Origin: Planoprotostelium fungivorum
Lineage: Eukaryota > Evosea > Variosea > Cavosteliida > Cavosteliaceae
Direction of reading: 5' to 3'
Length of the DNA: 45,651 nt
Assembly (NCBI GenBank): GCA_003024175.1
Contig: MDYQ01000218.1
Location: 1 to 45,651 of the forward strand
Position 1 is the stretch's first letter; the number at the start of each line of letters is the position of its first letter. This document shows, piece by piece, positions 1,904 through 44,863 of the stretch. Both the position numbers and the translations under genes were made by a program. The notes below the pieces were generated by a model. The model saw only the letters and a list, made by a program, of their open reading frames with translations. It was not told where the DNA came from and searched no databases.

Positions 1904-3458
1904 GCCGACACCTCTGCAAGTCAATATGACTGTCTTTCCTTCGTCTCCCGCCTCGATCTTGAACGTAACCCCGAAGAACTCTCGAATGTGTCGCAGGAAC
2001 GTGACTCTGTCTTCCATCAACTCAACCGTCTACAACGTTGTAGACTCACGTGAACGGTGACAATTTCCCCACTCGAATCTTCGATATGGCGTCGGGCGAG
2101 AGGACCATGAATAGAATGGCCGTAGTCTGGTTGATGGTGTCCACACAGCCCCCGTTACTGATCTGGATGACGTCATCACACGTCATCAGGTCACGTGATC
2201 ACCTCGGTCAGCAGTAGTTTGGATGCCGCGAGGCCGAGGTCCTCGGGTGTCGTTCCCGCCTTCGCCATCAGCTCAGCCGAGAGGGAATAGCCTGTGGTCG
2301 TCTCGGCAACCAAGGTCAAGCCGAAGCCGGGAGATCTCAAATCCGTCAGTCTACAACGAGACGAACGGATTTGGGCTCACAGTCCAGACTCAGGGCCTTT
2401 GAAGTGGTCGGAGTAGATGAAGACGTCTTGCATGTATTTGTTGATGATGGACTTTGCCGCTGTGACCATTCTGCCTCCGTTCTGTGGTGAAACTCGCGTG
2501 GTGTAACTGGAATGATCGGTGAGAATGCGTGGAGATTTCGAGTTACGTACGCGATACCACGGACTCTGCGGATCTGTCCTTCGTCGATCAATTTGACGGA
2601 ATTGAGTTCTCTTCGGACAATGGGGCAAGTCAGGATCACGTGACCTCCACCCAGAGGGGGTGACCCCCTCTTCAATATCTACAACGAGTTAGAATCGATG
2701 CACACACGATCACCCTTCGTCTAATGTCATCACATGATCACGACCAGCTCACCTTGAAGACAATCTCTTCTTCTGCTCCGATTCCAAATTGTTTGAGGAG
2801 AGGTATCGTAACGGTTCGAATCAAGTCAACCTGCGTTCGTAAACGTCGATCGGGAGAGATGAGATTGACTCACGGATATGTCGGTATCGTCATTCGTGAT
2901 GCCGTTGAACTCGATGGTGAAGGTATCTTTCGCAAACGGCATCAGACCGATGATGCCTTCCACTGACGACATGATCAGATGGATGAAGGAAAGGAGGGAG
3001 CCTCACGGAAGTAGCCGATCGAGCGAGAGGTGCCACAATCATGCTTGATCTTGCCTCCTGTGATGATTCCAGGTTTGATGGTCACTTTTGTACCCGTCGA
3101 ATTGATGACGATCTGTTCTTTCGTTCAGAAAAATCTGGGATGTGGAGACGAAGAATCTAACGTCGTGATGATGAGAAGAGATGGGATGGAAGCTGACCTT
3201 CGAACCGTTTGTCATCTTATCGATCAATCGTAGAAAGTTGGCTTCGAAATCTGAGATGAAAATCAGATCAGAATTCGAAGATTGCATGTACATATGGACT
3301 CTTTTGGATCTTAATATCATGACAAACCGACCTTTGATACCCGGGCTCTGATCCTCTGATCTGATGTCTTCTATCGATGTAGGTTTACCGCTCAGAATAG
3401 AGCATATGATTCTGTGCCTGAAATGCGCACATCCCTTGAACTTTAAGAAGGTTGTCAT
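1874..3458 (-). CDS. RCL1: RNA 3'-terminal phosphate cyclase-like protein (18S rRNA processing)
   Basis: The protein starts MTTFLKFKGCAHFRHRIICS and continues ILSGKPTSIEDIRSEDQSPG, DFEANFLRLIDKMTNGSK and ITGGKIKHDCGTSRSIGYF. Later exons give HVILTCPIVRRELNSVKLID, EGQIRRVRGIAYVTR, MQDVFIYSDHFKGPESG, SPGFGLTLVAETTTGYSLSA, NGGCVDTINQTTAILFM and VTFLRHIREFFGVTFKIEAG. These follow human RCL1 in order and cover its whole length (about 370 residues). RCL1 is a catalytically inactive cyclase-fold protein of the nucleolar SSU processome that works with BMS1 and is required for cleavage at site A2. The last exon (TVILTCRGVG...KRIH) ends inside the inverted repeat. An intron near 2007-2049 holds an 18-nt perfect palindrome. 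The start at 3458 is the Met that aligns with the family N-terminus. Confidence 0.92.
2028..2045 (-). repeat. 18-nt perfect palindrome in an RCL1 intron
   Basis: The sequence GTCTACAACGTTGTAGAC is its own reverse complement. It sits directly after the 5' splice site of a roughly 43-nt intron on the minus strand, between the exons encoding LSPFT and VTFLRHI. It is the archetype of the intronic CTACAAC/GTTGTAG word seen throughout the window. Confidence 0.85.
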
Positions 3459-3977
3459 CTCTCTCTCTCCTCTGTATGATGATGTCTTCCGAAATTCTTC
3501 ACCCAAAGGGCACAAATATTTGTTCCGAGGTCGTTAACTGCTGCCAACCTTCAAAAGAGGGAGGGCAGACAGGTCGATTGAAAGACTGACCTCTAAAACA
3601 TTACATAGAGGTGAGAATCTGTCGGCTCACTTCATAATTCGATTCCGCATCGAGCACAAACAAATCTCGGGAGTCGGGAAGATATCGTGCGCTCGACCTC
3701 TTAAGGGCGTTCTGAGGGGTTATTGAATAGAATCTAATCGTTGTCATCGCAGAGAGAGAACAATTTGAACTCTTCCATCTCCATACACCTCTAGTCGACG
3801 AGCGGAGGAACGAGGGAACATCGGAACTGAAGAGGTAAACCTTGACTATCTCGAACGATAATCTAAATCGGTTCTTCCTTTATGTTAACATATCGCTTAA
3901 CCAAATCGCTTCTGAAATCCATCTCCACAGCCGCACCACAGGACAACGTTTCACCTCTAGAGGGTCACACCAACAAC
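3459..3977. promoter_or_regulatory. Divergent spacer between RCL1 and the giant repeat protein
   Basis: About 520 bases separate two divergently transcribed start codons, so both promoters should lie here. I see no clear TATA box or convincing ORF over most of it. From 3882 there is an in-frame upstream ATG that would extend the plus-strand gene by 32 residues (MLTYRLTKSLLKSISTAAPQ...). That extension looks like an amphipathic, Lys/Arg/Ser-rich leader, but it is more likely 5' UTR. Confidence 0.5.
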
Positions 3978-6900
3978 ATGTCGGACGATGAGGACTGGGA
4001 TAAGGATTTTGCCGACGATGATTCTTCCTCTCTCTCTTTGGGCCCTCCAACAAGACTGAGCCTCTCTATCAACACAAAAACAATCACGCCACCCTCCAAA
4101 GACGATGAAAAGTCGGCTTCCTCTCCCGCCATCATGATCAACGAACCGAAGAAGATGGTTCAATTTGTAGAAGAAGACGATGAACCCTTTGAAGATTTCG
4201 CAGACAGTCCCATCAGACTCACAGGAGGTTCACCCATTTCAAAGAGCCCATCTCTTACCCGATCTCTGAGATTCCAAGATTCAGATGAAGAGAAGTGGGA
4301 CGACGATTTTGACGACGTCAAGGAACAGCCGGTCATGCAGATCAGAGGTGATGCATTGAAATCGTCTGACCATATGAGATTCACTTTTTCGATCGATGAT
4401 AGACGACTAATGAGACACAGGTATTAAAGCTGATCCGAAAGGAAAAGAAGAAGATTGGGACGAAGATTTCGATTTCGGTCCATCAGCTCCCATCGGCGCT
4501 CCCCTTCTTCGCGATAATTCGGGTGGGCTCTCATCACCTCATCGTCTCTCACCTCTCATCACCTCGTACTTCACATCGACTCATCTCCATCACCATCATC
4601 TCCCTCCCATCATCCTGATCTCACCTCCGTTGCCAGTCGGTCGCAAGCAGCTACAAATGAGCCGCGTCCACTCTTCCGCCCTCATGTCCATCACGACCAA
4701 AGTCGAAAACACACTGAAAGAGATCCACGCCAGCTGGCCGAGTGAGCGACTCTCTCTTATCTTTCTCTCACTCTCCTGCAGCGCCAGCGGACAAACAGAA
4801 GAAGAAGAGTAAGACGAGAAATCAATCCATCACCGAGCTCGATGATGAGTTTGAGACCGCGAGAACGTATTCCCTGGGGGGCCCACAGAAGATCATGGAG
4901 GAGGCGCAGTCCAGTCTCAAATCTGCGATCGAATGCGCCGCGAGAGGAGACAAGGGGGAGGCCATGAAGCATCTGAAAAATGCGCAGAATATTCTGGGAG
5001 GATTGTTTCAGAGAGATAAGGGTGAGAGGAGGTGTGGCGCGTTGTAGTTTGACGTGGGATAGATTTCGCCCTGGAGGCAGAAGTCTACTATCAGACGGGA
5101 CTCTTGATGAAGGCAGAGCCGATGGAAGCTGTCTCGCACTTCAAATACGCCATCGATATGATGTCTCAACTCAAGGTACATATCACACCCACTATTCAAT
5201 TTTCCCTCGAATTTCTGACACTTTTCCTCCATTTTTCACACTGTACAGGGTGATATCGACCCGCCTTTCAAAGCTCAAGTGTACCATGAGCTAGCCTCCT
5301 GTTACATCCAACTATCTAACCTCAGTACGGCCGCAATTAACCTGTCAGACTGTCTCAAGACTCTCTTGGCCCCTCCTTACCCTCTCATTCAGTGGGGTCA
5401 GGTCGCCCAGGCAACGCTATCCCTGTGCAATTGTCTCAAAGACATGAATCTCAGTCGAGAGATCTTACCTCAATACCTCCACAAATGCGTGGAGGCTGCC
5501 CAGCTGGTGGGAAATTTCCCCGTGACACGAAATCTCACGGAAAACTCGCAGGCTTCCGATTTGACCACGCAGAAGGAGGCAGAGGATATGCTACAGACTG
5601 TCCCTGACTTTCCCAAGACACCCATCAAGCCAGTCCCAGAGTCTCCCCTCAAGGTGGGTCTATTTTTATCTCGACTCGTTGTAGATTGACGTGTCTTCTC
5701 AGTTGAGGACGCAAGTCGTGCAACCTGACACGCTCTCCCTCTCAGCCAGTGAGACCGAATCGGACAGTGAGAATTGGGACATGGAATTGGGACTGGACGG
5801 TCAACAGCGTCAGACCCTCACCCTCGCCTCCACCGGTGGCGCTCCCGCCAAAATGAACTCCGATCCCGAGGAGCGAATTCCGAAGCGGTACAAGTTTTTG
5901 GACAGCCTCAAGCAGGAAGTAGAGATCATCAAATATCCAAAGGCCACCTTCTTCTACACCATGAAAACATCTGAAGGGCACAAATTATTGGGCGAGCAGG
6001 CGCAAGAGAGTTGGCTGGGAAATCTCATCGGAAAACACCCACAGGCCCTCGTATACAGAGAGTACATCGAGGAGAACGCAAACAAGGCCGTCCGAGAGCT
6101 CGTGCAGGAGTTTGCCAACAAGCAGGAGGGAGTGAAGAAGGTGAGTCGATCTACAACGCTGTAGATGACGTGAGCAGCTGTCGATCGAGTGGGCCAAGAG
6201 TCATCTGATTTTCTGTACATTACTGTATAAATTGGGACACAAGGATATCTGCTGGGAGAGCCTCTACAACTTTTTCGTAGACTTGGTCGATTGCAACATC
6301 ACTCGAATGACACTCTCCGATCAGTACAGTGAGTTTTCATCGAGTTTTCATCGAGATTTACGAGAGGAGGTTTCACCCACATCGTTATGAGCACGGCACT
6401 TTTGGCGGCAAAATTGTGGAGGTCGGATGATGAGAGGCCGACGGAATTCAAGACCATGATCAAAAACATTGAAAGATTCAATCCAAAGGCAGCCGATCTC
6501 ACCAAAGTCCTCGAGGTGATCTACACCGTTGTAGATGACCGAAACCTAACGACCGTATCAGGTGGAAACCGCCGTGCATCACAAGTACATGGAATTGGAT
6601 GACATCGAACCTTCTTTCATCATGTTCTGTCTCGTCACCCTCAGCAATCTGTACCGAAAATTGGCGGGAACCGAGTCCTCCGAAGCCAAGGCCGACCCCA
6701 GCAGCCTCACCCCCTACTACAACGAGGTATCTCCCACCCGAAATCTCTCTGACATCCACAGGTGGACCCACTCGTCGTCCGCGCTCGAATTCTCGTCGAC
6801 ATCCACTTCATACTCAACGACATCTCTCCATTGACATCGAGAAATCGTCAAGTGTCAGACGAAGACAGAGAGAATTCAGAGAGGAAGGGTATCTCTAACG

Positions 6901-9900
6901 GTGCCCTGGAGACGTTCATCTTGGACAATTCGGAGCTGTTCGATTCGAACAAGAGGATGCAGACGCTGACGGAGATCTATCCTCAGGTGGGAGACGTAAC
7001 GAGACGTAACTGATGACGTCATAGATTCCCACGTGCTTCGTGAAGGCGAAGGCGGCTTACGCTCTGGGTCTGTTCAGGTCGTTTGAGATGGAGGAACACG
7101 GCGTGGCCGAGCAGCTGTATTTGGACTGTGTCTACATTTTAGACCACTGCAAGTCACAGATCGAGGGAATCCCACCCGTCGTGTCGACACTGGGTACCAG
7201 CGCTCTACAACGCTTCGGAGAGGTTTTATTGTTGAATTACAAGTATCAATATTCCATCGCCGCCTACGAGGCCGCCGTGAAGGTGACACCCGGCGTGTAT
7301 GACGTGTGATGACGTCATCAGATATTACGATTGAAGAATGATGCCGGACTGTTACCTCTCATTCACAAGTTGGCCACTACAACGCGTGAGAATGATGACA
7401 CGAAGAGAGCCATCGAGTACCTGCGCGAGGTATTAGACAGTTACTCCCGTGACAACAAGTCCAACGAGGTGACCTATTTCTCCGAGATTCCTCCAGTTTC
7501 TCATCGAAATTTCAGTTCCGCTACGTTGCCGTCATCATCTCGCAGCTCCATCGTGACATGGGAGATTTCCGCAAGGCCGAGACGTTGCTTCTCAACGCCA
7601 TCTCGAAGGGTGCCGGCGTGCAAGCTCTCTCCAGCTTCGAGCCGACGAAATTAGACCACGCCTCTTTCCGCCTTCAGGTTCAACTGATCGATCTATATTT
7701 AGAGAGCTACACGTTTGAGAAGGGAATCGAGCTCTTGGAATATCTGACCACCTGCCAATTGCCGTTGAATTCGGCCCAGACTGTTTTGAGTAAATTAACA
7801 AAGGCTTACATCAAGAAGAGATGGTTCGTAGATGCTTCGAGGGTCCTCAGCAAGCTGAAGGAAGAGGTGAGCGTTGTAGATGGAGGGGGTGATGACGTGT
7901 CACAGGTCTCCAAGCCTGGACAGGGTATGAGGACCAATTCCGACGACCTGATGAAATACTACGAACTGCAAGCTCTCCTGCACCACCACTCTGGAAAACA
8001 CACCGACGCCCTAGTGTACGTACCATCTACACCGTTGTAGTCTGACGTCTCCAGCTCCATCGAGACCGCCATCAATCTGTGTTCATCCACTTCCCTCGCT
8101 GCCCTCGCTCACTACTGGACGGTCAGGGCGAAGATCTTCCGCGCTCTCTGCTCGTTGATTCACATCACTTTTCCCACCACCCTCAAGCCAAACCCGACCG
8201 ATCCAAATTTGTCCTCCAATCGAGGCACGAACAGCCAAGCGAAATTGTACACTTGCGTGGGGGACCTCATACAAGAGTGCGTCTACTCGTACGACAAGGC
8301 CTACCACTACTACAAGGTGGGAGAAAAACGGATGACATTTCGACTTACGTGGTAGGGTATTGGGGATGACATTCACATCGCGAAGACGGTGAACGGTATC
8401 GTTCAGACGTACCTGGAGCGTCTCTTCTGTCCCGTCGCTCTGTTGCACTTCCGCTACAACGACCTCGCTCGTCTACCTTTCTTCGAAATTTCTGACTTCG
8501 CCAAGACGGCGGGAACACCGGGTAGTAACAGCAAGCACAGGTGAAATTTCGCGGAGATCTCGTGACACTGTTGATTGAACGATAGAAGGACGAAGTCTTC
8601 TGTCGACGCTGGAATCAACATTCCTCTCACAGAGAAGAAGGAGTTTTTCGTTTCGATTGAAAAGATTGAAAATCCGGCTCTCTGTGCACTGGAGATCTGT
8701 GCCGAGACGTTCGATCCCATCATCATGGCCCAGAGGTGATCGTCTACAACGTTGTAGATGGCTGAAATGGGACAGTTTCATGAACATGGCGGAATTGAAG
8801 TACCTCCAAGGAGAACAGGAGACCGCGGTGGCCTTCTGGACCGAATGCAAGGAGCTGTGAGTGATGACGTCATCACACGTAACTGATAGCTGTCAGTATC
8901 ATGTCACTTTTCATGGAAGATTCCAATTACACTGTTCTCCTGGGTAAAGGGATGCCACCCAGCATGCTCAAAAAATTGGACCACGTTTTCTCCCGCGTCA
9001 CTCGCTTCATGTTCAGCCTCGATTCTACTTTCATCAACCAAGTGAGATTTCGTTTCCCGCCATTTTCCCCTGACCTTCCCAGCACCTCAACGTCATAGAT
9101 GCGTACAACCTGCTGCAGATCGACATCGAATCGTCCCACAGGAGGCCCACGCAACAGTTTGTGAAGAGCGAGACGAAGGAGGAGCTGTTGGCTTCTTTAG
9201 AAGGTGGTGAACTTTCACCACGAGGCTCGATATCGCAGACTAAGCCGCCAAAAATAGCCGTACCCAGCTTGTCTTCCGTCCCCTCTCATCTGAAGGTTCC
9301 CAGCATACGTAAACCCCTCGCCCCTGAAAGCGACACCCGGTGACACGTCTCACCTCCGTCAAAATCTGACTCGTTGTAGATTCAGCGATCACAAGAGAAA
9401 ATCGGTCGGATTAGAGAACAATCCGCTGCAAAAGATCAACGACATCAACGAAGAGAGTGCAGAGAGAATCTGGGGCTTCTTATTCGCCATCAAGACCCAA
9501 ATTGCCAATTTCATCAAGGGAAAGATGACGCAAGAAGAACTCTTGTCTCGAAACCGAAAGACAGTGAGGAAGATCTTGCAGGTGAAAACTCGATGAAAAC
9601 TTGAGACTGTCAGATGACGTCATCAGGTAAAACGACAGAACGAATTGATCAAGGGGTCCAACGAGCCAGAGACCGGTCACAGACTTTCAGACCCGAAGGC
9701 TCCGGGGGAGGCCAATCCATCTACAACCGGCCCCGCCTTCGAAGAATTCTCCGAGACTCACCCGGGTTTCTCACGGCTCCTCTACGTACTCACGGTGGAA
9801 GATTACATCATCTATTACGTACCCGTCACCGGAAGTGTACGCATCCAGCAGCTGGGAGGCAGGGAGGATGACGATTCCCGCGCAAATATCGTGGGCCCAC

Positions 9901-11698
9901 AGCCGTCCATGCGTTACGTATCCATACACATCGACAACGATTCCGTCACCTTGCTGTTGCCTCCCTCCGTCACGCTCGATAAACTCCTGAGGGTGGGTCG
10001 TGGCCGGTTGTAGATGGCTGATGACGTCACAGCACCTGTGCAACAAATCGTACTGGGAGCAGGATCCGGGAGAAAGCCGAAAGAAGAGCTTTTTCGGCTC
10101 CTTCGGTAGAAATTCCGCACTCAATTCCAGGAAGATCAAATTCGTAGACCGCACGAAAGGTGAGGATCCCATCTACAACCCGCCATTTCGCATCGAAATT
10201 TCCGTGACATTCCCGTAGGTTTCCAGTCTTGTCTCGAAGACATTCTGGCACAGATTGCCATCCGCGACACCCCGGCCGGTGAAGTTCGAGGAAATCGAGA
10301 GTGGACGACAGAGGACCTCTCCCTCGTCGCCTTTGCAAAGAAGACGATCAACCCCATCGACTCTTCTTCCATCTTCTGTCCTCTCAACGTCTCTTCTTCT
10401 AGAACGGTGAGGTAGATGTCGGTGTCGTGTCTCACGCGTGGCAGGTGGCGCAGTGTTACTCTCAGCAGGAGCTGAAAGAGTGCTCCATGGATAATCCGTT
10501 ACGTCTGTGGATCTACTTCTCCACGGGAGGGTCATCTACAACGGAACAGACGAGAGACTTTTTAAACAAGACGGTTTTCTTTTCGAAACCCATGCTGACT
10601 TACCTTTCTAACATCGTGGACGACGTGGAATCTGAAACTGCAGAGGCGAGGAAGAGCGTACAGAACGTACAAGATGCTCTGTTCTCCACGCTGATTGATA
10701 TCATACCCGATGGAGACCCGACCATACCCGTGGTGAGTGGAAATGGCGGGAAAAAATTGGGACTGAATTGGGACAGGCCATGGTGATCAGCAAGGCGATG
10801 GCATTGATGCCTTGGGAATTGATGATATTGGAACCCGTTTGTAGATACATGTCGGTCATGGATATGAGAGCTCACCTGCGGAAGGTGAGGCCACTGTGGC
10901 TCGTTGTAGATGGAACTGACCCTCCCGCAGAGGTCGTTCGTGGTGAAGAAGGACGAAGTCATTCCAAAGTTTTTCTCCATTCACAATTCGACCTTCGAGA
11001 AGAACAACGCACAGGAGGAATCGGATAGGAGGAGATGGATCCTTGCGGAGAACTTCAAGCGTCTCTACGTCAAGAGAAAGGTGAGAAACCTCATGCCTCA
11101 TCATCATTACAACATCACGATCGCGATGATGTTGACACGATGATGATCATCACCTTCATGATCTAACACTCGATAGACACCATCCTGCCAGAAGGTCCAC
11201 CACCAAGTAGTTCCCTTCCACACACCCCTGGTCAAATTGGGAAGAAGAGTCTCCGCCTACAAACGACCGTACAAGCTGATCCAGTGGATCGATGTATCCA
11301 GCATCTCTCAGCCAGCAGAGATCGTTCCTCTCTTCAAGAACATCGACATGTCCCCTCCTTCAGTCATGCTCTTTACCTTTGCCGATCTACTCGAGTTCAA
11401 CGACACCTTACAGTATCTCATACGGTGAGACTCTTTCATCATCATCATCATCATCATCGCACGCAGCATGATGATCTGAAATGTCTTTAGGAGTCGATTA
11501 GAATGTACGTACTTGTTCATCCCGGCCTCGAAGATGAAAGTGGTGACGACAAAGTTGATGAAGGTGGCGGAGGACTATCTGAAGACGAAAGAGAAGGCGA
11601 GGTCCGTTATGGAGCCCCAACAGTGGCTCATGAACACTGTCTCCTCTATCCAGAATGAACTCAACATCCCCATAGCCATCATGTGTCCCATGACTTAG
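3978..11698 (+). CDS. Giant TPR-like helical-repeat protein with acidic WDxDF motifs
   Basis: This is one gene of about 30 exons encoding over 2,000 residues; coding sense continues through every short GT-AG intron with no internal terminator. The N-terminus is acidic and holds three related motifs (DEDWDKDF, EEKWDDDFDD, EEDWDEDFDF) and a weaker fourth (SENWDMELG). A long series of amphipathic helices follows, typical of TPR repeats, for example IMEEAQSSLKSAIECAARG, FRKAETLLLNAISK and GIELLEYLTTCQLPLNSA. The C-terminal part contains AMVISKAMALMPWELMILEP and ends IAIMCPMT. The WDxDF motifs recall those of Byr4/Bfa1-type scaffolds of small-GTPase signalling, and the MPWELM stretch recalls CHAT domains that follow TPRs, but neither assignment is secure. 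I do not recognise an orthologue. The start at 3978 is preferred because MSDDEDWDKDF resembles a true N-terminus; 3882 is the alternative. Confidence 0.7.
8743..8758 (+). repeat. 16-nt intronic palindrome
   Basis: TCTACAACGTTGTAGA lies within a 40-nt intron (about 8736-8775) of the giant repeat protein gene. It is identical to the core of the palindrome in RCL1 at 2028-2045. Confidence 0.85.
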
Positions 11699-13611: not shown

Positions 13612-16600
13612 ATGTCTGAGAAGCAAGAGCGTGTGTTGCTGCCCGAATCGGTCAAGCCAAGCCAGTATCACATCCACTTGACGCCTGATCTCAAGAACTT
13701 TACGTTCCATGGAAGCATGTTGATCGATGTTCAAGTCAAAGAGGCTACGGACACCATTCAACTGCATTCCCAAGAGATCAAGGTGATAGGCGATTGTATG
13801 GTGAGAAACTAAAGGCAGTTTAGATCAACAGCGTGGCGATCACTGCCATTAGCTCTTCTGAGAAGTTCAAGGCCACTGAAGTCTCTTACGATGAGGGAGA
13901 AGAGCGCGCCATCATCAAATTTGCCTCTGCCATCCAGCCTGGACACGCCCAAATCGATATCGATTACGACGGAATCCTCAACGACAAGATGAAGGGATTC
14001 TACAGAGCCAAATACACTCTCAACGGTGAACAGAGGTGCGTTATCATCTTCGAAGCATTCGACTCATTTAATCGCTGACGTCATCCATAGACACATGGCC
14101 ACCACTCAATTCGAGCCCACTGGCGCCAGAAAGGCTTTCCCATGCTGGGACGAACCCGCAGTGAAGGCGATCTTCAACATCACACTCACATTCCCCGAGC
14201 ACCTCACCGGCCTCTCCAACATGGATCCCGTGCAAGAGTCAGGTACATCCATCTACATCGATGTAGATTGACTCTCACCAGTGCAAAACGGACTCAAGAC
14301 GGTCAAATACGCACCATCTCCCATCATGTCCACCTACCTCGTCGCTTTTGTCATCGGAGAGTTCGATCATGTAGAAGGTCACACGAAAGACAATGTTCGT
14401 GTTAGAATCTACACCCCCGTCGGTAAGAAAGAGACCGGTCTCTTCTCTCTGGACGTTGCAAGTGAGCCCACCTCTAGAATTTTCTCGGAAGATTTACGCG
14501 GGAACAGTCAAGACCCTCGAGTTCTTCAACGAATACTACGGCATCCCTTATCCTCTAACTAAGATGGACAAGGTAGCCGTACCTGATTTCTCCGCTGGCG
14601 CCATGGAGTGAGTTGGCGGGAAAATTTTCTGCGATTTTTCTGACGATTCCAGGAACTGGGGTCTCGTCACTTACCGTGAGACCGCCCTCCTCATCGATCC
14701 CAAATTATCCGGACTCACCAGCAAGACCCGCGTCGCCTACGTCGTCGCCCACGAGCGTGAGTCGTGTCTCGTTGTAGATGGCTGATGACGTCATAGTCGC
14801 CCACCAATGGTTTGGTAACTTGGTTACCATGGAGTGGTGGAAGGAACTGTGGCTCAACGAAGGTTTCGCTACCTTCGTGGGAACCCAGGCCATCGATCAC
14901 ATTTTCCCGGAATGGAAGGTGACATCCATCTACAACGGCGTTGTAGATGACACGGATAGGTCTGGACGCAATTCATCAGCGACTACATCAACACGGCGCA
15001 GTCTTTAGATGGTCTGGAGAGCTCTCACCCCATCGAAGTGGAAGTCTACAACTCGGCACAGATCGAGGAGATCTTCGATGCCATCAGCTACAACAAGGGT
15101 GCCTCCGTACGTACAGAAGATGGTTCGTTGTAGATTGACGTTCGCAGGTGATTCGCATGATCTGCGATCAGATCGGAGAGGCTGCCTTCAGAAAGGGACT
15201 CAACATTTACCTCGAGCGCTTCAAGTATTCCAACGCCGTCACAACAGTGAGTCCATCTACAACCCGCCAATCTCATCTTCCTTAGGACTTGTGGAACGCT
15301 CTCTCTGAGGCATCTGGCTATGACGTGGCAAATTTCATGAACGGCTACACGAAGAAGACAGGTTACCCTCTCGTCACTGTAGAATCTACAAGTGATCCTT
15401 CTGTCTTCAAGGTATCTCAACAGAGGTTTTTGGCCTCCGGAAAGATTATCGTGAGTGTTCGTCTACAATGGCGTTGTAGATGGTGATTAAATGACGTTCA
15501 GCACGACGATCTGTGGTGGGTTTCCATTCGCGTCCGATCCTCCAACAACCCCAACGAGGTGAGATTTGGCGGGAAAAGGGTCGATCTACAACGTTGTAGA
15601 TTCTCTCGTACGATTTCAAGGAGAAGGAAGGACACATCACTTTCAAGAACGTCGAGGGAAGCCGTTGGATCAAGGTCAACGCTGATTCTTCCGGATTTTT
15701 CCGTGTCCGCTACTCTTGTGAGAGATATTTCCCGCCGAAATCCTCGACTGACGTGTAACAGCGGATTTGGCGGCAAAATTGACCGGCCCAATTCAGAACA
15801 TGGAATTGGGACCTGTAGACAGAATCGGTATCCAAGGCGACGCCTTCGCCCTCTCCGTCGCCGGTCTCGCCCCCTTGTCTGAGGTACCGTCCCAAATTAT
15901 TTGGCGGGAAAACTGACGTCCCAAAGGCGCTCAACCTGGCTCGCGCCTACGTCAACGAGACGGAGTACACCGTCTGGGCCGATTTGGCGGGAAATCTTGC
16001 CAAGGTTGGAATCGTGTGGTCCCTCGAGCCCAACAGCCAGCAGTACAGAAGATTCGTCGTCAACGTCTTCTCCTCCATCGGAAACAAGTTGGGGTGAGCT
16101 GCCACGTCATCATGACGTCATCTGACGTGGCAACAGCTGGGACGCCAAGCCAGAAGACACCGACCTCCAAAAGTTGTTGCGCGTCACCGCGTTGGCTCAG
16201 CTGGTGAGAAGAATAAAATACAATAAAATAAAATTCTGACGTGACTGCAGGGTAACAATGGAGACAGCGCTACCATAGAAGAAGCGAAGAGGAGATTCAA
16301 AGAACTCGTGGCGGGAAGACTAGAGATGCCAGCAGACATCCGTGCTCTCGTCTACAAGTTGACCGTCGCCCACGGCGGCCACGAGGAATTCGACCAAGTC
16401 GTAGACATCTACAGGTGACCCTCTACAACCCGCCACACGTTCACACTCCACAGAAAGACCGACCTCCACGAAGAGAAAGTTCGCGCCTTGAGAGCCCTCG
16501 GTGCATCAGATCGTCATGATCTCATCGCGAGAGCGTTAGACTTCATCATGAGTTCTGAAGTCAGATCGCAAGACTTTTTCGTCGGTCTACATCCTCTCAC

Positions 16601-16945
16601 CCAAACGGCACCCGGTCGCGTGGCCGCGTGGAAGTTCCTCCAAGACAGGTATGACTCGTCACTCTACGTCACGAGCTGACTCGTTGTAGATGGGTGGAGA
16701 TCGAGAAGACCCTGGGAGACTCTGCAGGTCTGTTAGACAGGACCATTGGATATGCCACCAGCACGTTCGCCTCTGATGAGAGAGCTGATGAGATCGAAAA
16801 CTTCTTTAAGACAAAGTCTGTGCCACAGGCAGAGAGGACCATCAGACAGTCTCTCGAGGCCGTGCGTGCCAACAGCAGGTGGTTGAAGAACAACCGCGAG
16901 GGTGTCGCCAAGTGGTTGAACGACAACTTTCCCAACTCTCAGTAG
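13612..16945 (+). CDS. NPEPPS: Puromycin-sensitive-type M1 aminopeptidase
   Basis: This zinc metallopeptidase removes N-terminal residues from peptides; the PSA subfamily is mainly cytosolic. About 20 short introns interrupt the gene, and the product is roughly 870 residues, as expected. Visible are [20 protein letters not shown], the substrate-binding GAMEN motif (SAGAME, split by an intron at 14609-14652, then [13 protein letters not shown]), and the zinc site HELAHQWFGN (split by an intron at about 14759-14798) with the third ligand in WLNEGFAT. The C-terminal helical ERAP1-like domain runs from [10 protein letters not shown] to the end ([10 protein letters not shown]). An alternative upstream ATG at 13417 would add 65 residues with a hydrophobic stretch (IIVPLIALLFYYFL) and make a membrane-anchored form, but the TATA-like box argues against it. 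AATAAA follows the stop at 16953-16958. Confidence 0.93.
14251..14268 (+). repeat. 18-nt intronic palindrome, variant centre
   Basis: ATCTACATCGATGTAGAT is a perfect palindrome in a 39-nt intron (about 14241-14280) of the aminopeptidase. It has the same arms as the CTACAAC palindromes but a different core (ATCGAT in place of AACGTT). The symmetry is therefore kept while the sequence changes. Confidence 0.85.
14927..14949 (+). repeat. 11-bp inverted repeat with 1-nt centre in an intron
   Basis: CATCTACAACG and CGTTGTAGATG flank a single G. It fills most of a 41-nt intron (about 14919-14959) of the aminopeptidase. Confidence 0.85.
15584..15601 (+). repeat. 18-nt palindrome spanning a 3' splice site
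   Basis: ATCTACAACGTTGTAGAT is a perfect palindrome at the end of an intron (about 15560-15599). Frame continuity places the acceptor AG inside the palindrome (GTTGTAG followed by ATTCTCTCG). The same intron also contains TTTGGCGGGAAAA. Confidence 0.8.
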
Positions 16946-29278: not shown

Positions 29279-31427
29279 ATGCCCGTCGTAGCTGTACTCA
29301 GGGCCAAGTATGACTTCCAAGAGCCAGGGGCTGAGGGAGAGAGGATCATGTTATTGAAGGAGGGAGACATCATCTTCTGTCTGTTCAAGCATGAGAGTGG
29401 TTGGGCGAAAGGTGAATGATTCATAAGACACAGACGATGGAGATCGGGTCTTCCGATGAGTTTATATCGATTGGATCTACAGGTAGAAAGTTAGACACGG
29501 AGGAGAAAGGATGGTTCCCCATCGATTACACGGAAGAGATAGGTAAACCTGGAGATATGGTCGACATACCCAAATCGGATGAGAGGATCAAGAACGAAGC
29601 TCAAAAGGACGAGAACTTTAAGAAGGAGAAGGTGAACGGTTCAATATATATATCAGCGTTCATCAACTCACCATCCCTTCTAGTTGAAGGCATTACCCGA
29701 AACAGAAGCGAGACGATTCAACATCATCTTCGAGATGTTCACCACGGAGAAGAGCTACAACAACTCCCTCCAGAAGATCACCAACGTGAGACGATCACCT
29801 CATCCCCATCTTCTCACCTCCATCTGCAGTTGTACCTCCAACCCATCAAAGACAACGAGTCACCCGTCGAGCCAAAGTACGTCCCCAGAATCTTTGCCAA
29901 CATCGAGGAGCTCTCATCCGTCTCCACTGTCTTCCTCGGAGAGCTCAACAATGCCACTCAGAATTGGGAGGCAGGCCACACCGTAGGACAGTTCTGGGCG
30001 GCCCTCGTGCGTCACCATCTCCCTCCATCTCTCATCGTCTTCAGATCCCCAAATTGGACATCTACAACTCTTACATGAAGAATCATCACACGACCATCGT
30101 CACCATCAACAACCTCATGGAGAGGAAACAGATCGCGGCGTGGCTCCAGGCGAAGAAAGAAGAGGCGGCAGGTTTAGACTTCCTCGCTCTCCTCATCATG
30201 CCCGTGCAGAGAATTCTGAGATACAAACTGTTGTTAGAGGTACGTCGTAGAACGACAGACGGAGACTGAGACGAGAAACAGGACCTCTTAAAGAACACAC
30301 CGGACACTCATCCCGATCATGAGCAGCTGTCTGTGTCTCTGAAGAACATTCTGGATTTGGCGGGAAACGTGAACGAGAGCATCAAAGCAGAAGAAAATTT
30401 CAAGAAATTGTGTTCCATTCAGCGCAGCTTCGTTGGTAACGTCAAGGTGAGTGAATGAAATAGAATAAAACAGAATAAATTGAAATAAAACAGAACATCG
30501 TGACGGACGAGAGGAAGTTCATCTGCGAGGGACCCCTGTACAAGGTCTGCCGTAAGTCAGCGAAATTTCGCTGGGTTTTCCTCTTCTCAGACGCCCTGGT
30601 GTACGCATCTTACGTCGTCATGACTTCCAGGAACGCAAAGACAAAAAAGGCGGGAAGTGGTCCCATCATGAACAAAGAGTCCGATTCTTATCCAAAATAT
30701 CTCTTCCACCGAATGATCTCCCTCTCTTCCACTCAGATCAAGGTGAGATCTCACCGTCTACAACGATGTAGTGTCATGACGTCATCAGGACGTGGAAGAT
30801 ACGGAGACGCAGAAGAATGCCTTCTCGGTCATCACGACGGAGGAAAAGTCTTTCACTGTTTTCGCTGAGACGAAGCAGGACAAGCAGATGTGGATGACTC
30901 ATTTGGAGAAATTGACCAGTAATTCCAGTGAGTAGACGTTCATCTACAACGAGATCGTATCTATCTACAACGAGGCGGAGACTGAAATTTCGCGTAGGTC
31001 TCGATGCTGCGGCACCCGTCTGGGCACCCGACTCTTCCACGAAAAAGTGTGTCTTGTGTCAGAAGAGTTTCAACGTCGTGCAGAGGAGGGTGAGTCCATC
31101 TACAACCAGCCACTCCTGACCTCCCCCAGCATCACTGTCGCTACTGCGGTAGGGTGGTGTGTGGCTCGTGCAGTGGACAGAGCATCAACATCACACACAT
31201 ATCCAGCAAGGCCGTTCGTGTCTGCAAAGAGTGTTACTGCTCTCTCACTGATGCCACGTCACCCAACTCGAGGCAAGTGTCCCAGGTCCGATGTGAGTCC
31301 GAACGGCGCGTTGTAGTTGTCCTGATTCCGAGCAGCTTCGACCATGTTGACTGCCAACTCTTCTGCCAGCTACGCGAACGAGGCACCAAAGGCGAATCCT
31401 CCGCAGGTCACCACGGCCAAGGAATAA
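29279..31427 (+). CDS. SH3-RhoGEF(DH)-PH-FYVE protein, FGD-like
   Basis: The order is an SH3 domain (VVAVLRAKYDFQEPGAEGER, GWAKG, then EKGWFPIDYTEEI), a DH domain (FNIIFEMFTTEKSYNNSLQK, FLALLIMPVQRILRYKLLLE; the second is the conserved helix that contacts the GTPase), a PH domain (FICEGPLYKVCRKSAKFRWV, ETKQDKQMWMTHLEKL) and a C-terminal FYVE finger (APVWAPDSSTKKCVLCQKSF, RHHCRYCGRVVCGSCS, VRVCKECY). The WxPD, RxHHCRxCG and paired cysteines needed for PI3P binding are present. FGD proteins activate Cdc42-type GTPases; coupling to PI3P suggests endosomes or macropinosomes. It has about 480 residues. The stop TAA is embedded in AATAAA (31423-31428). Confidence 0.88.
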
Positions 31428-38287: not shown

Positions 38288-38310
38288 ATTATTATTATTA
38301 TTATTATTTA
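38288..38310. repeat. ATT microsatellite
   Basis: About seven ATT units (AATTATTATT...) lie in the KIN17-RING ligase spacer, directly upstream of an E2F-like site. Confidence 0.9.
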
Positions 38311-38322
38311 TTTGGCGCGAAA
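38311..38322. promoter_or_regulatory. Palindromic E2F-like site
   Basis: TTTGGCGCGAAA is a perfect dyad and a textbook E2F/DP binding site. It lies 31 bases before the ATG of the RING ligase gene and after the KIN17 stop. A cell-cycle-regulated promoter is a reasonable inference, but the similar word TTTGGCGGGAAA also recurs in exons and introns here, so occurrence alone is weak evidence. Confidence 0.5.
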
Positions 38323-38352
38323 GATTGGGACAACAGCACATCGATCGAGATA

Positions 38353-39341
38353 ATGCAGACCACAAGCTCTACCGGCAGACGCCCTCTTGAAATTGACACA
38401 GACAGCGATGTTTCTCGCGATGTCAAAGCGATGAGCCTCGATGAATTAAGAAGATTGAGAAGACAATTAGCGGACCATATGGAGGTGATCGAGCGAGAGA
38501 TTGATACGGTGAATATTTCACGTCAATATCCAAATGATCTCACATAAAAAAGAGGGAGCAGCAGCTGCGCGCTGATGAACAGATGGCCAGAGATCTAATC
38601 GAAGACGAAATGAGAACGACATACATGGCACCCAGAGGTTTTTCATCCTCTCGAAAGCATGATGTAGCTTCCGAGGATAGTCGATTGGCACGTCTGTTGG
38701 CCGCCAGGTGATCATCGAGGAACCGATCTATCCACTCACAACCAACCAGTGTTCTCGACGAAGAGAGGAATCCCCCCTGTATTGATCTCACAGCGGACGT
38801 CGGAGTGAACAACAGTTTCCTCCTCGATGATGAGGAACTGGCTCTGGCCATTCAATCTCAAGAAACGAGTCATTCGAGAGGTCGATCTCACCATCATGAT
38901 CATTCCTTTCTGGTAATCATTGGGAACATGGATTCCACCATCACTCATTCTCATGTAGTTGACCCAAAGACCTCGAGAAAGGCAACCCGACGTAGACAAC
39001 ATGACATACGAGCAGTTACTCGAATTAGGAGAACGCTTGGGACAGGTGAGATCCTGATGTCATCCTCTAATCATCATCCACCACCAGGTGTCACGAGGTG
39101 CTTCACGTGAGGACATCAACAGCCTTCCCACCATACAACACACGCTCGAGACCCAGAACTGTTCTGTCTGTCTCGATGACATCCATGCGGGAGAGAAAGT
39201 CAAGATCCTCCCCTGTCTGCACAGGGTGAGCTTTTATTCGTGAGGGAGATTAAGAGGAGACAGTATCACGACAATTGTATCGACAGCTGGCTGAAGATGA
39301 GTCGAAAGTGTCCCGTCTGTCACAAAGAGATCGCCACGTGA
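38353..39341 (+). CDS. RING-type E3 ubiquitin ligase, BIG BROTHER-like
   Basis: About 220 residues in several exons. An N-terminal coiled segment (AMSLDELRRLRRQLADHMEV) is followed by acidic helices, one of which (LDDEELALAIQSQE) resembles a ubiquitin-interacting motif but is off register by one residue. The C-terminus has MTYEQLLELGERLGQ, VSRGASREDINSLPTIQHTL and a RING-H2 finger: NCSVCLDDIHAGEKVKILPC, LHRYHDNCIDSWLKMSRKCP, VCHKEIAT. The YEqLleLGe.lG...G.s...I..LP segment before the RING is the signature of plant BIG BROTHER and animal RNF44/38-type ligases. All eight zinc ligands are visible. Confidence 0.88.
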
Positions 39342-39372
39342 TGAATGTATAAACGGCTCGTTGTAGAACGAT

Positions 39373-40781
39373 TTATATCCCCTTCTTCTTCGAAATGTAC
39401 TGGGATAATTCTTCGGCCGTATCGATCGATCTACAACGCGTCTCAATTCTGTGTGGTGATATCGACATACAGATGACTCACGTGCAGACAGCAGAAGGAA
39501 CGATCTGCTTGGCTAATCCACTCAATACTCTCGCAGCTCCGATCTCTACAAATTCTTCCACCCCTGTTGGTTTGAGTGGAAATGTTTGAAAAAAGCGGAG
39601 AAATTACCATCGTCTCTACAACGCAATATACTATCGTGCCACATGACCGTTGCGGTCACTTGCTCGCTCAGTAGCCTTCTGATCTCCTCTGGGTCTTGTA
39701 CCTATCTATAATCAGCCAGTTTCATTGAGATGAGACCCACCCTCTCGTGAGTCACGTTCGATACGATGGGTACCCTCCCTCTGTGGATCTGAATTTTCTC
39801 CAACTTTTCCCTCAACTTTTCCGCCGCAGGTTTCAGTATAGAGGAGTGAAAGGGTGCACTGACATTCAACCTCCTACTCTTACACCGAAATCCCAACGAA
39901 GATTCACTGCCCAGCTGTACGGCCTTCTCTACCGCCTCCACGTGACCGCTCAGTACGATCTACAACGAGTCAGAAGAGTCAAGTCACGTGACTCACCTGT
40001 GAGGGAGAATTGATGTTGGCGATCTGACAGATCTTCCCCGTAGAAGATTGAGATTCTCTCGCTAAGACATTTGCCTTCTCTCGGTCGATGGGCATGAAGG
40101 CTGCCATGGCGATCTGATCGGGCTCGATGCACTCTTGCATCCATTTGCCTCTACACCTCTGTCCTCTCGTTCATCACTCGTTGATTGATGGTGAGCATGA
40201 CGATGATGGTGATGTTGATGGTGATGTATGATGATCACCACTAGATCAGCGGCGTCTTCGGCTGTAATGTATTCGGCAGCTGCTAATGCAGAGAATTCAC
40301 CCAGAGAGTGTCCCAACACCGCAGAGATCTCCCGAAAATCGAGAACACCTTCATCCTGCGATCATCAGATCGTCTCATCAGGACAGACACGAACCTTTAA
40401 GACTTGAACAATGGCCATCGAATGAGAGAGGAGAGCGGGTTGGGTGTATTCGGTCAACATCAGCTTGTCCATTGGCCCCTCCCACATGATGTCTATGTTC
40501 TCTGTCAGAATGGGCGGTCAATGGTTTGGGGATGAAGTACCTTGGAGTGGCAAGTCTAATCGTTTCGATATGCGAGATAGAAGATGTCGAGCGGAATCGT
40601 ATTTGGCACAGATATCGGCTGACATGCCTACGTATTGGGCTCCTTGTCCAGGAAACATGAGAGCAATACGCTTCCTCGGTGGAGTGTGGAGTTGTCGTCT
40701 GATGATGCATTGTACATCACGTGATGTTTTCGGCTGTGTAACTCCTTTGGGAAAGGATCGAATCACAGACGAACGGTGCAT
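39373..40781 (-). CDS. MCAT: Mitochondrial malonyl-CoA:ACP transacylase
   Basis: The N-terminus (MHRSSVIRSFPKGVTQPKTS, then RRQLHTPPRKR) is a mitochondrial presequence. The FabD fold follows: IALMFPGQGAQYVGMSADIC, LMLTEYTQPALLSHSMAIVQ, VLGHSLGEFSALAAAEYI (GHSLG, catalytic Ser), ECIEPDQIAMAAFMP, ICQIANINSPSQ, LNVSAPFHSSILKPAAEKLR (catalytic His in PFHS), TATVMWHD and EEFVEIGAARVLSGLAKQIV. It loads malonyl groups onto acyl carrier protein in type II mitochondrial fatty acid synthesis, the route to lipoate. The last exon encodes DTAEELSQYISKKKGI. About seven introns; about 355 residues. It shares a short divergent promoter (about 100 bases) with the GSAP-like gene. Confidence 0.93.
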
Positions 40782-40884
40782 GGTTTGTGTTCGTTTTGAT
40801 GCGAAGGTGATGTGACGTTCTACATCAATGTTGCTCTACAACCGCTCACATCATCGACTTCGAGCGTTTCCATATCTCCAACCG

Positions 40885-43800
40885 ATGTTCAAGTTTGAAC
40901 TCATCCATAATATCAAAGAGGATGTATTAGCTCGTGCCAAACAACTGCAGTCGGCTACTGCTTCTCCTCAACGATCTACGTCTACTACATCACCATCTAC
41001 AAGAGAAGAACTCAACACGGTTCGAATCGTTGGCAACGAGAGAGACGGAACGATCATCTGCACGCGTGATACTATCGATCGGGTAATGATTTGTCGAATG
41101 ATTTGACGACACAAACTCTTTGAATTTCGTTTCAATCTTAGAATTGACTCTGTCTCAGAACGGAGCGACGATCACGGCATTCGATTTTTACGATGTTAGC
41201 ACTAAGAGGGTATTGCTCAATCAACATTTCGAAAGGAGACATTTAGACGTCATCGGTTGCTCTGTATCACAAGATCGGTCACTGATCGGTATGCATTGAA
41301 TAATCCACCACACACAAACTGATGCAAGATGATAGCTTATACCATTTGTGTCCAGAATTCAACCAGCGGTGAACTTTCTGATGGCAGCAGTGGATCGTAT
41401 CTATCTATCGATGAATACGAGACATGGTGGGGCGAACTCCATCCGCAGGCCACGATGCAATGTCTGAAGCGCTCTTCCTCCCCCATGCGAATCCAAGTGT
41501 GTCTCCTTCATCTCATCCACCCTCATTCCTGATGATCGTTCAGTTCATCTATTCGAGCGATTTCAATGCCTCCACCAACAACTTCACATCGAAACGAGCC
41601 GTCTACTTCTTAGGCTTCGGTCTCAACGAAAAGATCGAACTACAACACTCTATCGAATTGTACCACGTCACTCTGAAATTCAGAGACGGTGTATACGTAT
41701 CCTGACGTCATACTTCACCGCGAGATTTCCTTGACTTTTCACAGAAATTGCTGACTGTACCGAATAAGAAGGTAGTGCTGGCTAGCTCGTACATTTGGTG
41801 TGAGTGGGATACGAAAAAAGCTTCATTGTACATCGTGTCGACAAAGCCTGGGAAGGTGAGTTTTCATCGAAATTTCGACTCGTAACCGTGTACCTCTAGA
41901 GTAATGCCAGTGAACCGAACATCTTCTCGCTCAAGTGAGTACATGGGTTTTAGGGTTTATCTCGATTGACGTGATAGGTGCTATACCTTTCAAGACAAAA
42001 AATCGGGTATCTTACATTCCATCTATTCATCGGAGGACTACACTCTGTCTTATGAAATTCCGTTGGAATTTCAATACGAAGGTTTCGACCCACTCCACAT
42101 CCTGTACCCCCTCACTCCCTACGACAAAAAGTGCGATCTACACATGCAAATGATCCACATGAGAGAGGTGAACGACGTCGTTGTAGATGGAAGATTCACG
42201 ATTATTCCTCAGAACGAGAACTGTCTCTGCGTGCAGCATCCGATAGAAGGAGAGGGACAGAAGAGGAGCATCACTGTCACCCTCTTCATCCTCCACACGA
42301 AGACAAAGATGGACATCAAGGTGATCATCCATCACATCACATCCGAATCATCGATGCGATCGATCTCATCGACGATTAGATTCCCATCAAAGTGACATCA
42401 GACATGGATGTGTCACGCATCCGAGTTACGTTCGAACATCTCCTGGACTCCATCATCTTATTTATCCCTGGAATTTTCTTTCAGATCGTACACTGTGGGA
42501 ACGACCGTGGACCCGTCGCCGGGCTGTCTATCAACCGTGAGCCCTTTCGAGTCGAAATTTCGTCGAGTTCTACCGATTCACCTGCCTCAGAGGATCAGAC
42601 TTGCGTCCTCCAATCGATGACACGAAAGACGGAGAGATCGGATAAATCGTCCGTCCCAGTGGACCCGATGATGGAGAATCTGTCCCAGCCTGATGTATTT
42701 GGGAGGCAACTCACGGGCTTCCGCGGGAGAATGAAAGAGACGAGGAGATCTGACGGAGACAAGAAGAAGAAGACGAGTGATTCGATGGTCTTGTATGACT
42801 GCGAGGAGGTGGGTGATGCGGTACGATGACGTTCATGACGTGTACAGGGCATATTGTACAGGTGTCAGTTCAATAAGAACTCGATCCGGGCCATCTACAC
42901 TCTGCCAAATTTCGACGAAGACACGTTGCTGTTGGGGTTGCACCTGTCCATCATGCACCTCAAGGACAAAGACATTGCAGATAAGGTGAAATGTCGTCGA
43001 AATTTCAAAAGATGACAGTCTCAGATCCTGAAGCTGATCTGCGAGGGAGATCACATCGGCACGGTGGCTGATCTATTTAAAGAAACCCTAGTCGGTACGT
43101 CGAGATATCGATGAAAATCGAGTGAAATTTCACAGCCAATGCCTTCATGCGTACATTGAAGAAGAGCAAAGCACACAATCACACCATCAACTTTGATCGA
43201 TTATTACCCCTCACCATCATGGATGAGACGGTGATCCATACGTAACTCTCAGTGGCTCATTGTAGACAGACGTACTCGACCGTAAGAATGAACCACAGCG
43301 ACATTACCTTCACTCGCCTCAACGGCTACACTCACATCCCCGGAACAAAGACCGTCATCCGCGAGGTGATATTCCTCCGTCTACAACGTTGTGGATTAAC
43401 TGTCCCAGAGAGAAGATCGCAAGAGGATGATCATAGGCCCCACGCCACGCACGACAGCCCCCAACACTCCCACCCAGCAGCCAGGACTCAAAAGATTCGT
43501 CATCGATCTACTCGGTTTAGAAGATGAAGGTACGTCATCGCTCTCTCATGGAGACTGAAACATGCGATAGCAGCCGCGCGAAACGCAGAGAAGGCAGCAC
43601 AGACGGACAGAGATGCTGAATCCATACAAGCAGAGAGAATTTTCACGGAATGTCTGACAGCTCACCTGTCCACGACTTATCCCAAAGAGAGACAGTCCTG
43701 CCAACAGATCTCCCTCATCTACGCCAAGCAGAGGGTGAATGTCGCGTGGAACTCGTGGAGAACTGATTGACCACCAGCAAGTGGAGGCGAACAAGTTGTT

Positions 43801-44863
43801 TGAATCAGTGAGATTGTACGGGAGAAAAGGGAGAATATTTGAATTGTTGGAGCATCTTTATTCTTCCCTCGAGGAATTACAATTTCCACATCCAGACGGT
43901 TTCAACGCCGAATTCATTCGAGTGGGGTACAGGTGTTTGCCCAGGAGGTGAGCGTCTACAACGATGTAGATGACTGAGACGCGCAGTGTCTTCATGCAGT
44001 ATCTGGACAGGGGAATATTTTATCCTGACGTGGGATTTGTAGATGCGGTGGTGAAGAACCATGAGGATGCTTCTTTCATCTATCACCTCGCATCCAAAGT
44101 CCATCCACAGGTGATACATCTATACGTACAGTACGTATCTGAAGACTGACGGGGGTAGAATGTGATGGCGGATATACTGAGGCCCAGGGAAGAATTCGGA
44201 CAATATCCTTTTATTTCATTTTATTCGTATCTACCTATCCTTGACCGTCTTCACTGCCTTGTGTGAGCACACGATATCGAATATAGCTCCCGCAAAAGTG
44301 AAGGAAATCTACTCACGTGATTCCGTTGGATTAGACATGGAGGTGATGAATACTTACCTCATCACCATCTACGTCATCATTGTGATGATCATCGAGTTGA
44401 TGAGTTTCATCAGGTTGGTGAGGACTCACCGTTCATCCCCTTCACTGTCTTTATTAATTCGATCAAACCCGAATATCACAAGCACATCCACTCTGTCGTA
44501 GATTATTCCTTCATGAAGCACGTAGAAGAGGTGTGTCATCCCCTCCCTCTCCTCCCTTCATCTTCTCTCGTTCTTTTTTTCTCATTTTCTTCTCTTCTCA
44601 CTCTCTTCAGGAAGCATACGAGAAGCTGTTGGGTGTCTCATTCTTTGACACGAATCACTCTTATGTGACCAACCCACAGCTGAATTTGATTCAACACGAG
44701 GTGGTGGTGATCATGGTGATGATGACTGACGAGAGACCAGATGATGACGATCCCCATCTCTTCTCCGAGGTCAAAGAGGATGGATTCGCCGGGTATCACA
44801 GGCAGTCCACTGTCTAAAATCCACTTTGGAAGCCCCATGATGAGAAGCCGGAACAACAGCTAA
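40885..44863 (+). CDS. GSAP: Gamma-secretase-activating protein (pigeon) homologue
   Basis: About 20 short introns; close to 1,000 residues (human GSAP 854). Similarity to GSAP runs through the whole length: FELIHNIKEDVLARAKQLQ, VRIVGNERDGTIICTRDTID, ITAFDFYDVSTKRVLLNQHF, VIGCSVSQDRSLIG, VLYDCEE with GILYRCQFNKNSIRAIYTLP, LDRGIFYPDVGFVDAVVKNH, FIYHLASKVHP and, near the end, FIPFTVFINSIKPEYHKH followed by EEEAYEKLLGVS. In animals GSAP is reported to bind gamma-secretase and modulate APP cleavage; its ancestral role is unknown. I infer a final 43-nt intron at about 44701-44743, which replaces an acidic readthrough by a Ser/Pro-rich tail (MMTIPISSPRSKRMDSPGIT...) ending at 44863. Confidence 0.8.

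Follow-up and report, generated by a model that had tools for sequence, protein, structure and literature searches.

Introns of unrelated genes in the variosean Planoprotostelium fungivorum share a palindromic word, CTACAAC/GTTGTAG (word A), that occurs far above expectation and behaves as a signal in DNA might. The word was originally noticed in contig MDYQ01000218.1 (assembly GCA_003024175.1), whose 45,651 nucleotides are referred to here as the window, and three explanations were offered: introner-like elements derived from a miniature inverted-repeat transposable element (MITE), a hairpin that brings the splice sites together, or a DNA-level signal. Our results favor the last of these. Word A is enriched, prefers introns, has a rigid geometry, is neutral to orientation, clusters by gene and has companion words; these features, with its sharp specificity and the exonic copies of one of the words, support a reading that we hold with roughly even confidence, namely that word A is a sequence-specific double-stranded-DNA recognition site for putative dimeric factors, spread through certain genes. 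A protein dimer would bind the word, and such binding may affect transcription or chromatin.

The genome comprises 36.86 Mb in 471 contigs, of which the window is contig C167. Beyond the window we sampled 240 kb in 10-kb stretches, as well as small paralog pieces, and the final gene prediction covered 285.7 kb; among the first 20 stretches fetched, 9 were picked near motif hits, and 15 contig-start stretches were picked blind to hits. Introns were predicted by our own two-strand Viterbi gene finder, in which the intron model consists of splice-site matrices and length and does not include the motif. All gene models are ab initio, with some in-frame introns missed, and gene names (myosin, telomerase-like and others) were assigned by eye, except for aminopeptidase and kinase. 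The final run yielded 1179 predicted introns (75.1 kb), approximately 174 kb of exon and an intergenic remainder of 36.3 kb; predicted intron lengths peak at 37-44 nt and their ends read GTGAG...CAG. Sequence alignment supports the reality of these predicted introns: residues 2-857 of the spliced window aminopeptidase align with puromycin-sensitive aminopeptidase (9o5k) at 842 bits, spanning 17 introns of which 9 contain word A, and the motif introns of this gene are therefore excised in the expected frame. For genome-wide searches, each pattern was controlled by the same pattern read backwards. Two sampled pieces (L038, C35:8300-9900, and L039, C112:50270-51900) proved identical, with 1601 identities and 0 mismatches, and the assembly is therefore partly redundant and genome counts slightly inflated. 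An allelic comparison was set aside, since C35 and C112 were identical over these 1601 aligned bases.

The excess of word A in introns is real. In 747 introns of 35-56 nt (245.7 kb of sequence), GTTGTAG was found 48 times against 0.42 expected from a first-order Markov model, and CTACAAC 43 times against 0.82, a 50-110-fold excess. In the 15 blind-picked stretches the counts were 9 versus 0.26 for GTTGTAG and 10 versus 0.46 for CTACAAC. The word is present in 20 of 456 introns of the blind-picked stretches, compared with 33 of 167 window introns and 68 of 316 from hit-picked stretches; extrapolating from the first of these and from intron density, some thousands of introns genome-wide would carry it. 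Across the whole genome, CTACAAC-N(0-6)-GTTGTAG occurs 768 times against 11 for the reversed control, ATCTACA-N4-TGTAGAT 876 times against 0, and CCATCTACAACG 2351 times when both strands are counted (1160+1191) against 8 (5+3). Introns, which make up 26% of the 285.7 kb, hold 32 of the 38 [AG]TCTACA-N4-TGTAGA[CT] dyads; 5 are in predicted exons, in places that resemble missed introns by eye, and 1 is intergenic.

The geometry of the element is rigid. The half-site spans approximately 12 bp, (T)CCATCTACAACG, beyond which the flanks are near background, and it can also be written as (C)CATCTACAACG / CGTTGTAGATGG. Genome-wide, the inverted dyad formed by ATCTACA and TGTAGAT has a gap of 4 in 876 cases, of 5-6 in 1, of 7 in 40, and of 8-16 in 10 over those nine lengths, the reversed controls being 0 each. 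Locally, CTACAAC and GTTGTAG abut 25 times and lie 3 apart twice, and no more than one case was seen of any other inverted spacing up to 60 nt. A lone half-site often runs into CCGCCA, or takes the form TGGC-NN-GTTGTAG in the other sense. With splice-site ends left out, introns contain GTTGTAG 56 times and CTACAAC 57 times, and the longer GTTGTAGATGG 20 times and its reverse complement 16 times. Thus the element, as would suit a dimeric site, has inverted half-sites at a fixed spacing and is independent of orientation (56 sense and 57 antisense), although some flanked forms are biased. Its specificity is sharp: beside its 57 exact copies, CTACAAC has 24 one-mismatch relatives where 29.7 are expected. 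Word A can also double as a 3' splice site in the form CTGACTCGTTGTAG, as had been noted for some introns; among 939 introns 35-75 nt long, 26 end in GTTGTAG. A branch-point role for CTACAAC was rejected, as the word lies mostly near the donor whereas TGAC lies near the acceptor.

Word A belongs to a small lexicon. We designate as word B the TGACGTC/GACGTCA type (TGACGTCA, TGATGACGTCATCA), as word C the GAAATTTC type and as word D the CCCGCC/GGCGGG type (TTTGGCGGGAAA). Introns with word A (113 of the 781 short introns; 66 gene models) are concentrated in particular genes, to a degree reached in 0 of 5000 permutations. Across 74 gene models, the density of word A correlates with that of B (rho 0.53), D (0.51) and C (0.36). 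TGACGTC occurs in 24 of 243 A-free introns of A-rich genes versus 2 of 392 in A-free genes, and within A-rich genes co-occurrence in the same intron is not raised for A with B (6 versus 8.0 expected) or A with C (1 versus 3.8). A lexicon word is found in 78% of the 18 introns of the aminopeptidase, and 27 of 69 gene models lack such words altogether. Genome-wide, TGATGACGTCATCA occurs 501 times against 0 reversed, and TTTGGCGGGAAA 687 times (353+334) against 1 (0+1). Among gene models, lexicon density was not explained by codon-usage axes, intron length or intron density. Expression level was rejected as the driver of the gene class, the codon-usage axes being uncorrelated; for GC3, rho was only 0.31 with word A (p 0.011) and 0.22 with the lexicon (p 0.07). 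Words B (TGACGTCA) and D (TTTGGCGGGAAA) resemble the consensus sequences of bZIP (CREB/ATF) and E2F sites. The genome encodes two E2F_TDP domains above cut-off, on C441 and C351, and word D would thus be a candidate E2F site by both its consensus sequence and the presence of E2F/DP domains. Among the first places listed, TTTGGCGGGAAA stands in tandem pairs 13-15 bp apart at C6:23790/23804, C12:159212/159226, C21:111690/111703 and C25:25564/25579. The most enriched palindromic hexamers of the short introns in the 285.7 kb are the ACGT-centred GACGTC, AACGTT, TACGTA and CACGTG, plus AAATTT. A gene at L005 31-7874, telomerase reverse transcriptase-like by eye, has word A in 20% of its 41 introns.

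At least one of the words also occurs in coding exons. When synonymous codons were shuffled with the proteins held fixed, exonic TTTGGCGGGAAA was observed 7 times against 0.1 expected, and ATCTACAAC/GTTGTAGAT 45 times against 7.8, the reversed 9-mer giving 3 against 2.6. Missed introns inflate such counts, and a codon test was therefore used that masks 42% of the coding sequence as possibly intronic. In this test 3 of the 7 LAG tripeptides left unmasked are written as TTG-GCG-GGA, against 0.10 expected, and the reordered codons are used in 0 of 9 and 0 of 7. Good evidence thus exists for exonic use of word D, and that for word A is only suggestive. One exonic copy of TTTGGCGGGAAA lies on the plus strand at 15983..15994 of the window, where it encodes part of VWADLAGNL, a segment of the aminopeptidase aligned with VWSDLSCNL of puromycin-sensitive aminopeptidase.

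Several observations weigh against a DNA recognition site and are considered here together with the rival explanations. The intergenic 36.3 kb, the usual home of regulatory sites, is poor in the word, with 12 CTACAAC/GTTGTAG and 0 GTTGTAGATGG. The flanked forms show strand bias (CTCGTTGTAG 14 to 4, CGGGTTGTAG 1 to 7 and GGCGGG 6 to 20), and GTTGTAG, with 56 exact copies, has some excess of one-mismatch copies (43 versus 18.5 expected). Words A and D share an intron 9 times against 4.7 expected, which would fit a composite element. There is no sign of a link to expression level, because the codon-usage axes are uncorrelated with lexicon density. In exons, the reversed 7-mer control of word A is itself raised (87 versus 48.9), and although ATC-TAC-AAC encodes 8 of 10 unmasked IYN against 3.1 expected, its reorderings are also high (YNI 4 of 4 versus 1.2; NIY 3 of 3 versus 0.9). 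Further points of this kind bear on copying. Intron interiors are alike, scoring at least 15 in 327 sense and 205 antisense pairs against 2 when shuffled (87 with the A arms masked), although some of the top-scoring pairs come from tandem repeats of coding character that were wrongly called introns (L011, L021). Two intron pairs agree at 24 of 28 anchored flank positions, against maxima of 22-23 after column shuffling; as linked dyad arms confound this permutation test, only its best pairs are considered here. A few introns of unrelated genes have 26-40 nt in common, among them the window intron at 14243 with a stretch on C137 and, inverted, with one on C109. Such resemblance is what one would expect if short inverted-repeat elements, introner-like or MITE-derived, had spread and had made or filled introns either way round, the words being their remnants, and the rigid gap could also come by such descent. 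We nevertheless regard this origin as unlikely. The window aminopeptidase and its paralog L033 have 11 intron positions and phases in common, with word A in 5 of the introns in the former and 2 in the latter; both of the L033 introns are at positions where the window gene also has the word, and 5 of the 9 motif introns of the window gene are at common positions. A myosin pair has 4 common positions, 3 of them with the word in just one of the two genes and 1 with it in neither. In all, at 15 common positions (from these two paralog pairs only) the word is on both sides at 2, on one side at 6 and on neither at 7; the introns are therefore older than the words, and the introns at new positions that introners would predict are not supported by these two gene pairs. 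Furthermore, motif introns are not longer than others (median 42.5 nt with a dyad, 41.5 with a half-site and 44 for the remainder), which also led us to reject insertion of an 18-24-nt palindrome into existing introns. The core has no halo of decayed one-mismatch copies, although the flanks past approximately 12 nt are unconserved; full-length similarity is confined to isolated pairs. Copies outside genes, expected of a MITE, amount to 1 intergenic dyad in 38 (introns 75.1 kb, intergenic 36.3 kb), the dyad is internal to the intron and not terminal, and word D is present in conserved coding sequence. Motif introns did not differ significantly from others in rank along the gene (Kolmogorov-Smirnov (KS) p 0.21), with no 5' bias detected, and their phases are similar. 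Some copying therefore happens, yet it does not account for the bulk of the words, and the MITE/introner option is disfavored as their main source. Neutral homogenization, in which recombination or repair would copy short tracts among the introns of some genes and the words would have no function, seems to us quite unlikely: introns that pair in modular fashion (for example 9993-10032 and 14757-14796) and the gene-wise covariation of the lexicon speak for it, whereas the sharp core without a halo and the fixed geometry imply constraint, and word D is also exonic.

Explanations based on RNA fare less well. If a hairpin joined the splice sites or bound a splicing factor, introns would be the natural place for dyads, and they are indeed their main location. 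Introns with a dyad fold better than shuffled versions (mean z -1.62, n=42), GTTGTAG forms the 3' end of the 26 introns mentioned above, one-mismatch dyads have G-U-compatible pairs in 7 cases and A-C pairs in 2, and the outermost pair is altered on both sides in two dyads (GTCTAC...GTAGAC); the last two observations also count against a site read in DNA. Covariation between the arms had been suggested as a check; besides the two-sided changes at the outermost pair, the base pair beside the central CG has 13 one-sided changes and 1 two-sided change (CTACATCGATGTAG). Loops of 5-6 are nearly absent, though RNA would permit them, and dyad introns fold no better in sense (z -1.62) than antisense (z -1.82). 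The lone word is indifferent to orientation (56 versus 57), and half-site introns, 71 of the 113 motif introns, have no excess folding (mean z -0.24, some of them reaching just 0.0 kcal/mol), much as other introns (mean z -0.15, n=663) and exon pieces (0.03, n=500) are unstructured. Because one-armed introns lack excess folding and gaps of 5-6 are missing, we reject a universal RNA hairpin; as a general rule the splicing hairpin is not supported, and we consider it very unlikely. Least probable of all, in our estimate, is that the words pair between introns of one transcript and so organize the pre-mRNA, giving clustering by gene. It speaks for such pairing that word A is met both ways round in one and the same gene and that B and C are each self-complementary; however, any complementary pair would serve this purpose, yet identical words recur in unrelated genes, and pairing between introns has no need of a rigid dyad gap.

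Within the window there are 43 CTACAAC and 29 GTTGTAG. Word A is carried by 33 of the window introns of 35-75 nt; those of 35-56 nt fall in 8 gene models and not in at least ten genes as had been stated. All four palindromes described as perfect (2028-2045, 8743-8758, 14251-14268 and 15584-15601) and the four described as near-perfect (at 6149, 6519, 14927 and 43954) were confirmed, and the single arms are present within approximately 10 bases of the positions given; those at 10173, 21501 and 30944 sit in modelled exon, where some may be missed introns. The first dyad, GTCTACAACGTTGTAGAC (2028..2045), lies in intron 2007-2049 of a minus-strand gene originally named as RCL1-like. Further dyads are found at 6149..6166 (core ACGC, intron 6141-6177), 6519..6536 (core CCGT, intron 6516-6561), 8742..8759 (intron 8736-8775), 30758..30771 (CTACAACGATGTAG, alongside a TGACGTCA word in intron 30743-30788) and 43954..43971 (core ACGA, intron 43948-43986). 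Plus-strand half-sites occur at 5678..5686 (GTTGTAGAT, intron 5654-5702), 7873..7883 (GTTGTAGATGG, intron 7867-7905), 10007..10013 (intron 9993-10032, also with TGATGACGTCA) and 10903..10909 (intron 10885-10930). Intron 8857-8896 contains a word B region (TGATGACGTCATCA) at 8860..8879, and at 9373..9379 word A forms the plus-strand 3' splice site of intron 9340-9379 (CTGACTCGTTGTAG). The large inverted repeat at 1-1903 of the window, with arms 1-107/1797-1903, 126-401/1524-1799 and 399-479/1449-1529 that are 94-99% complementary, flanks a broken gene that is fibro-slime domain protein-like by eye, and is possibly a mobile or duplicated element.

The remaining sites, those of the aminopeptidase among them, lie between 14243 and 16689. 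The dyad at 14251..14268 (core TCGA) occupies aminopeptidase intron 14243-14281, and similar stretches are found at C137:48855-48893 and C109:31503-31542. A dyad with a gap of 7 (ATCTACAACGGCGTTGTAGAT, 14928..14948) is contained in intron 14919-14959, and another, at 15584..15601, spans the 3' splice site of intron 15559-15599 such that its last two bases are exon. On the plus strand, intron 14757-14796 combines a half-site with word B (14771..14781), intron 15107-15147 has a half-site at 15127..15133, where the word is the acceptor in the paralog intron at the same position, intron 15451-15501 has CTACAATGGCGTTGTAG at 15473..15479, and at 16683..16689 word A is the 3' splice site of intron 16649-16689. 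Half-sites running into CCGCCA are present on the minus strand at 15257..15263 (CTACAACCCGCCA, intron 15247-15285, with a dyad in the paralog intron at the same position) and 16423..16429 (intron 16415-16453). Two plus-strand aminopeptidase introns contain companion words: 14608..14652 has word D (TTGGCGGGAAAA) without word A, and 16094..16136 has word B (CATGACGTCATC). In the word-poor paralog L033 (C8:106200-110900), several introns measure 150-234 nt at positions whose counterparts in the word-rich gene are approximately 40 nt long.

Classical bZIP (CREB/ATF) and E2F sites are promoter-proximal; unlike these, the words described here are found within gene bodies and rarely in intergenic DNA. 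None of the papers listed by our literature searches describes these words in introns, and the full 14-mer is absent from the 15 papers listed, out of 104, that contain one of three sequence strings. The nearest printed intron phenomena, symmetrical stwintrons and introners, differ in position, similarity and scale. The symmetrical (stw)introns of Hypoxylaceae likewise have inverted symmetry and a recurrent central palindrome, of 10 nt, and the symmetry is dispensable for splicing according to the authors (PMC8469720). They have terminal repeats of 45-55 nt, tens of highly similar copies and novel positions (PMC8469720), unlike the half-sites of approximately 12 bp, introns of approximately 40 nt, hundreds of dyads, unconserved flanks and paralog-common positions found here. 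Introners of Amoebophrya (PMC7789003) and those derived from DNA transposable elements (PMC9860276) similarly place inverted repeats in many introns, some of which form hairpins in Amoebophrya; there, however, the inverted repeats form the ends of the introns, direct repeats flank the boundaries and similarity is at the level of families (PMC7789003, PMC9860276), whereas here the dyad is internal and most motif introns have no full-length family. Introns rich in Periodic An/Tn Clusters (PATCs) of C. elegans provide a case in which a non-coding intronic DNA signal affects the expression of the gene that carries it (PMC7725773), and a DNA-level intronic regulatory signal can therefore exist. PATCs are described there as periodic A/T runs (PMC7725773), which differ from the discrete palindromic words of P. 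fungivorum. The motifs of plant intron-mediated enhancement are also short intron words tied to expression; they are reported to concern first introns (PMC8157754), whereas the words here had no detectable 5' bias (KS p 0.21).

Based on these results we speculate on how a recognition site for dimeric factors might operate. A dimeric DNA-binding protein would need two half-sites inverted at a set distance, here a gap of 4 or rarely 7. Word A would join TGATGACGTCATCA, GAAATTTC and TTTGGCGGGAAA in a small lexicon distributed along the bodies of genes of one particular class, and the words may be gained and lost in place by point mutation within existing introns. They would sit in introns because introns are gene-body DNA without coding constraint, and at least one word appears to be written into exons as well. 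The bound factors would probably act from within the gene body on transcription or chromatin, as a distributed intragenic enhancer or licensing signal. A broader form of this proposal, which we offer tentatively and believe in less than in the recognition site itself, is a gene-body code: a class of genes would be marked along its full length by a lexicon of dyad words bound by putative factors, introns of approximately 40 nt would serve as docking linkers between exons, the words would be gained or lost gene-wide by point mutation at fixed intron positions, such that paralogs switch between marked and unmarked, and part of the code would be placed in exons through codon choice.

An intron-repeated palindrome is thus not necessarily an RNA hairpin or an introner, and a simple count of a pattern by gap length separates pairing from protein geometry. 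It is an open question why the compact genomes of protists keep tiny introns at such density. If introns hold the DNA-level address of a gene, then intron retention and the differences between paralogs would become testable.

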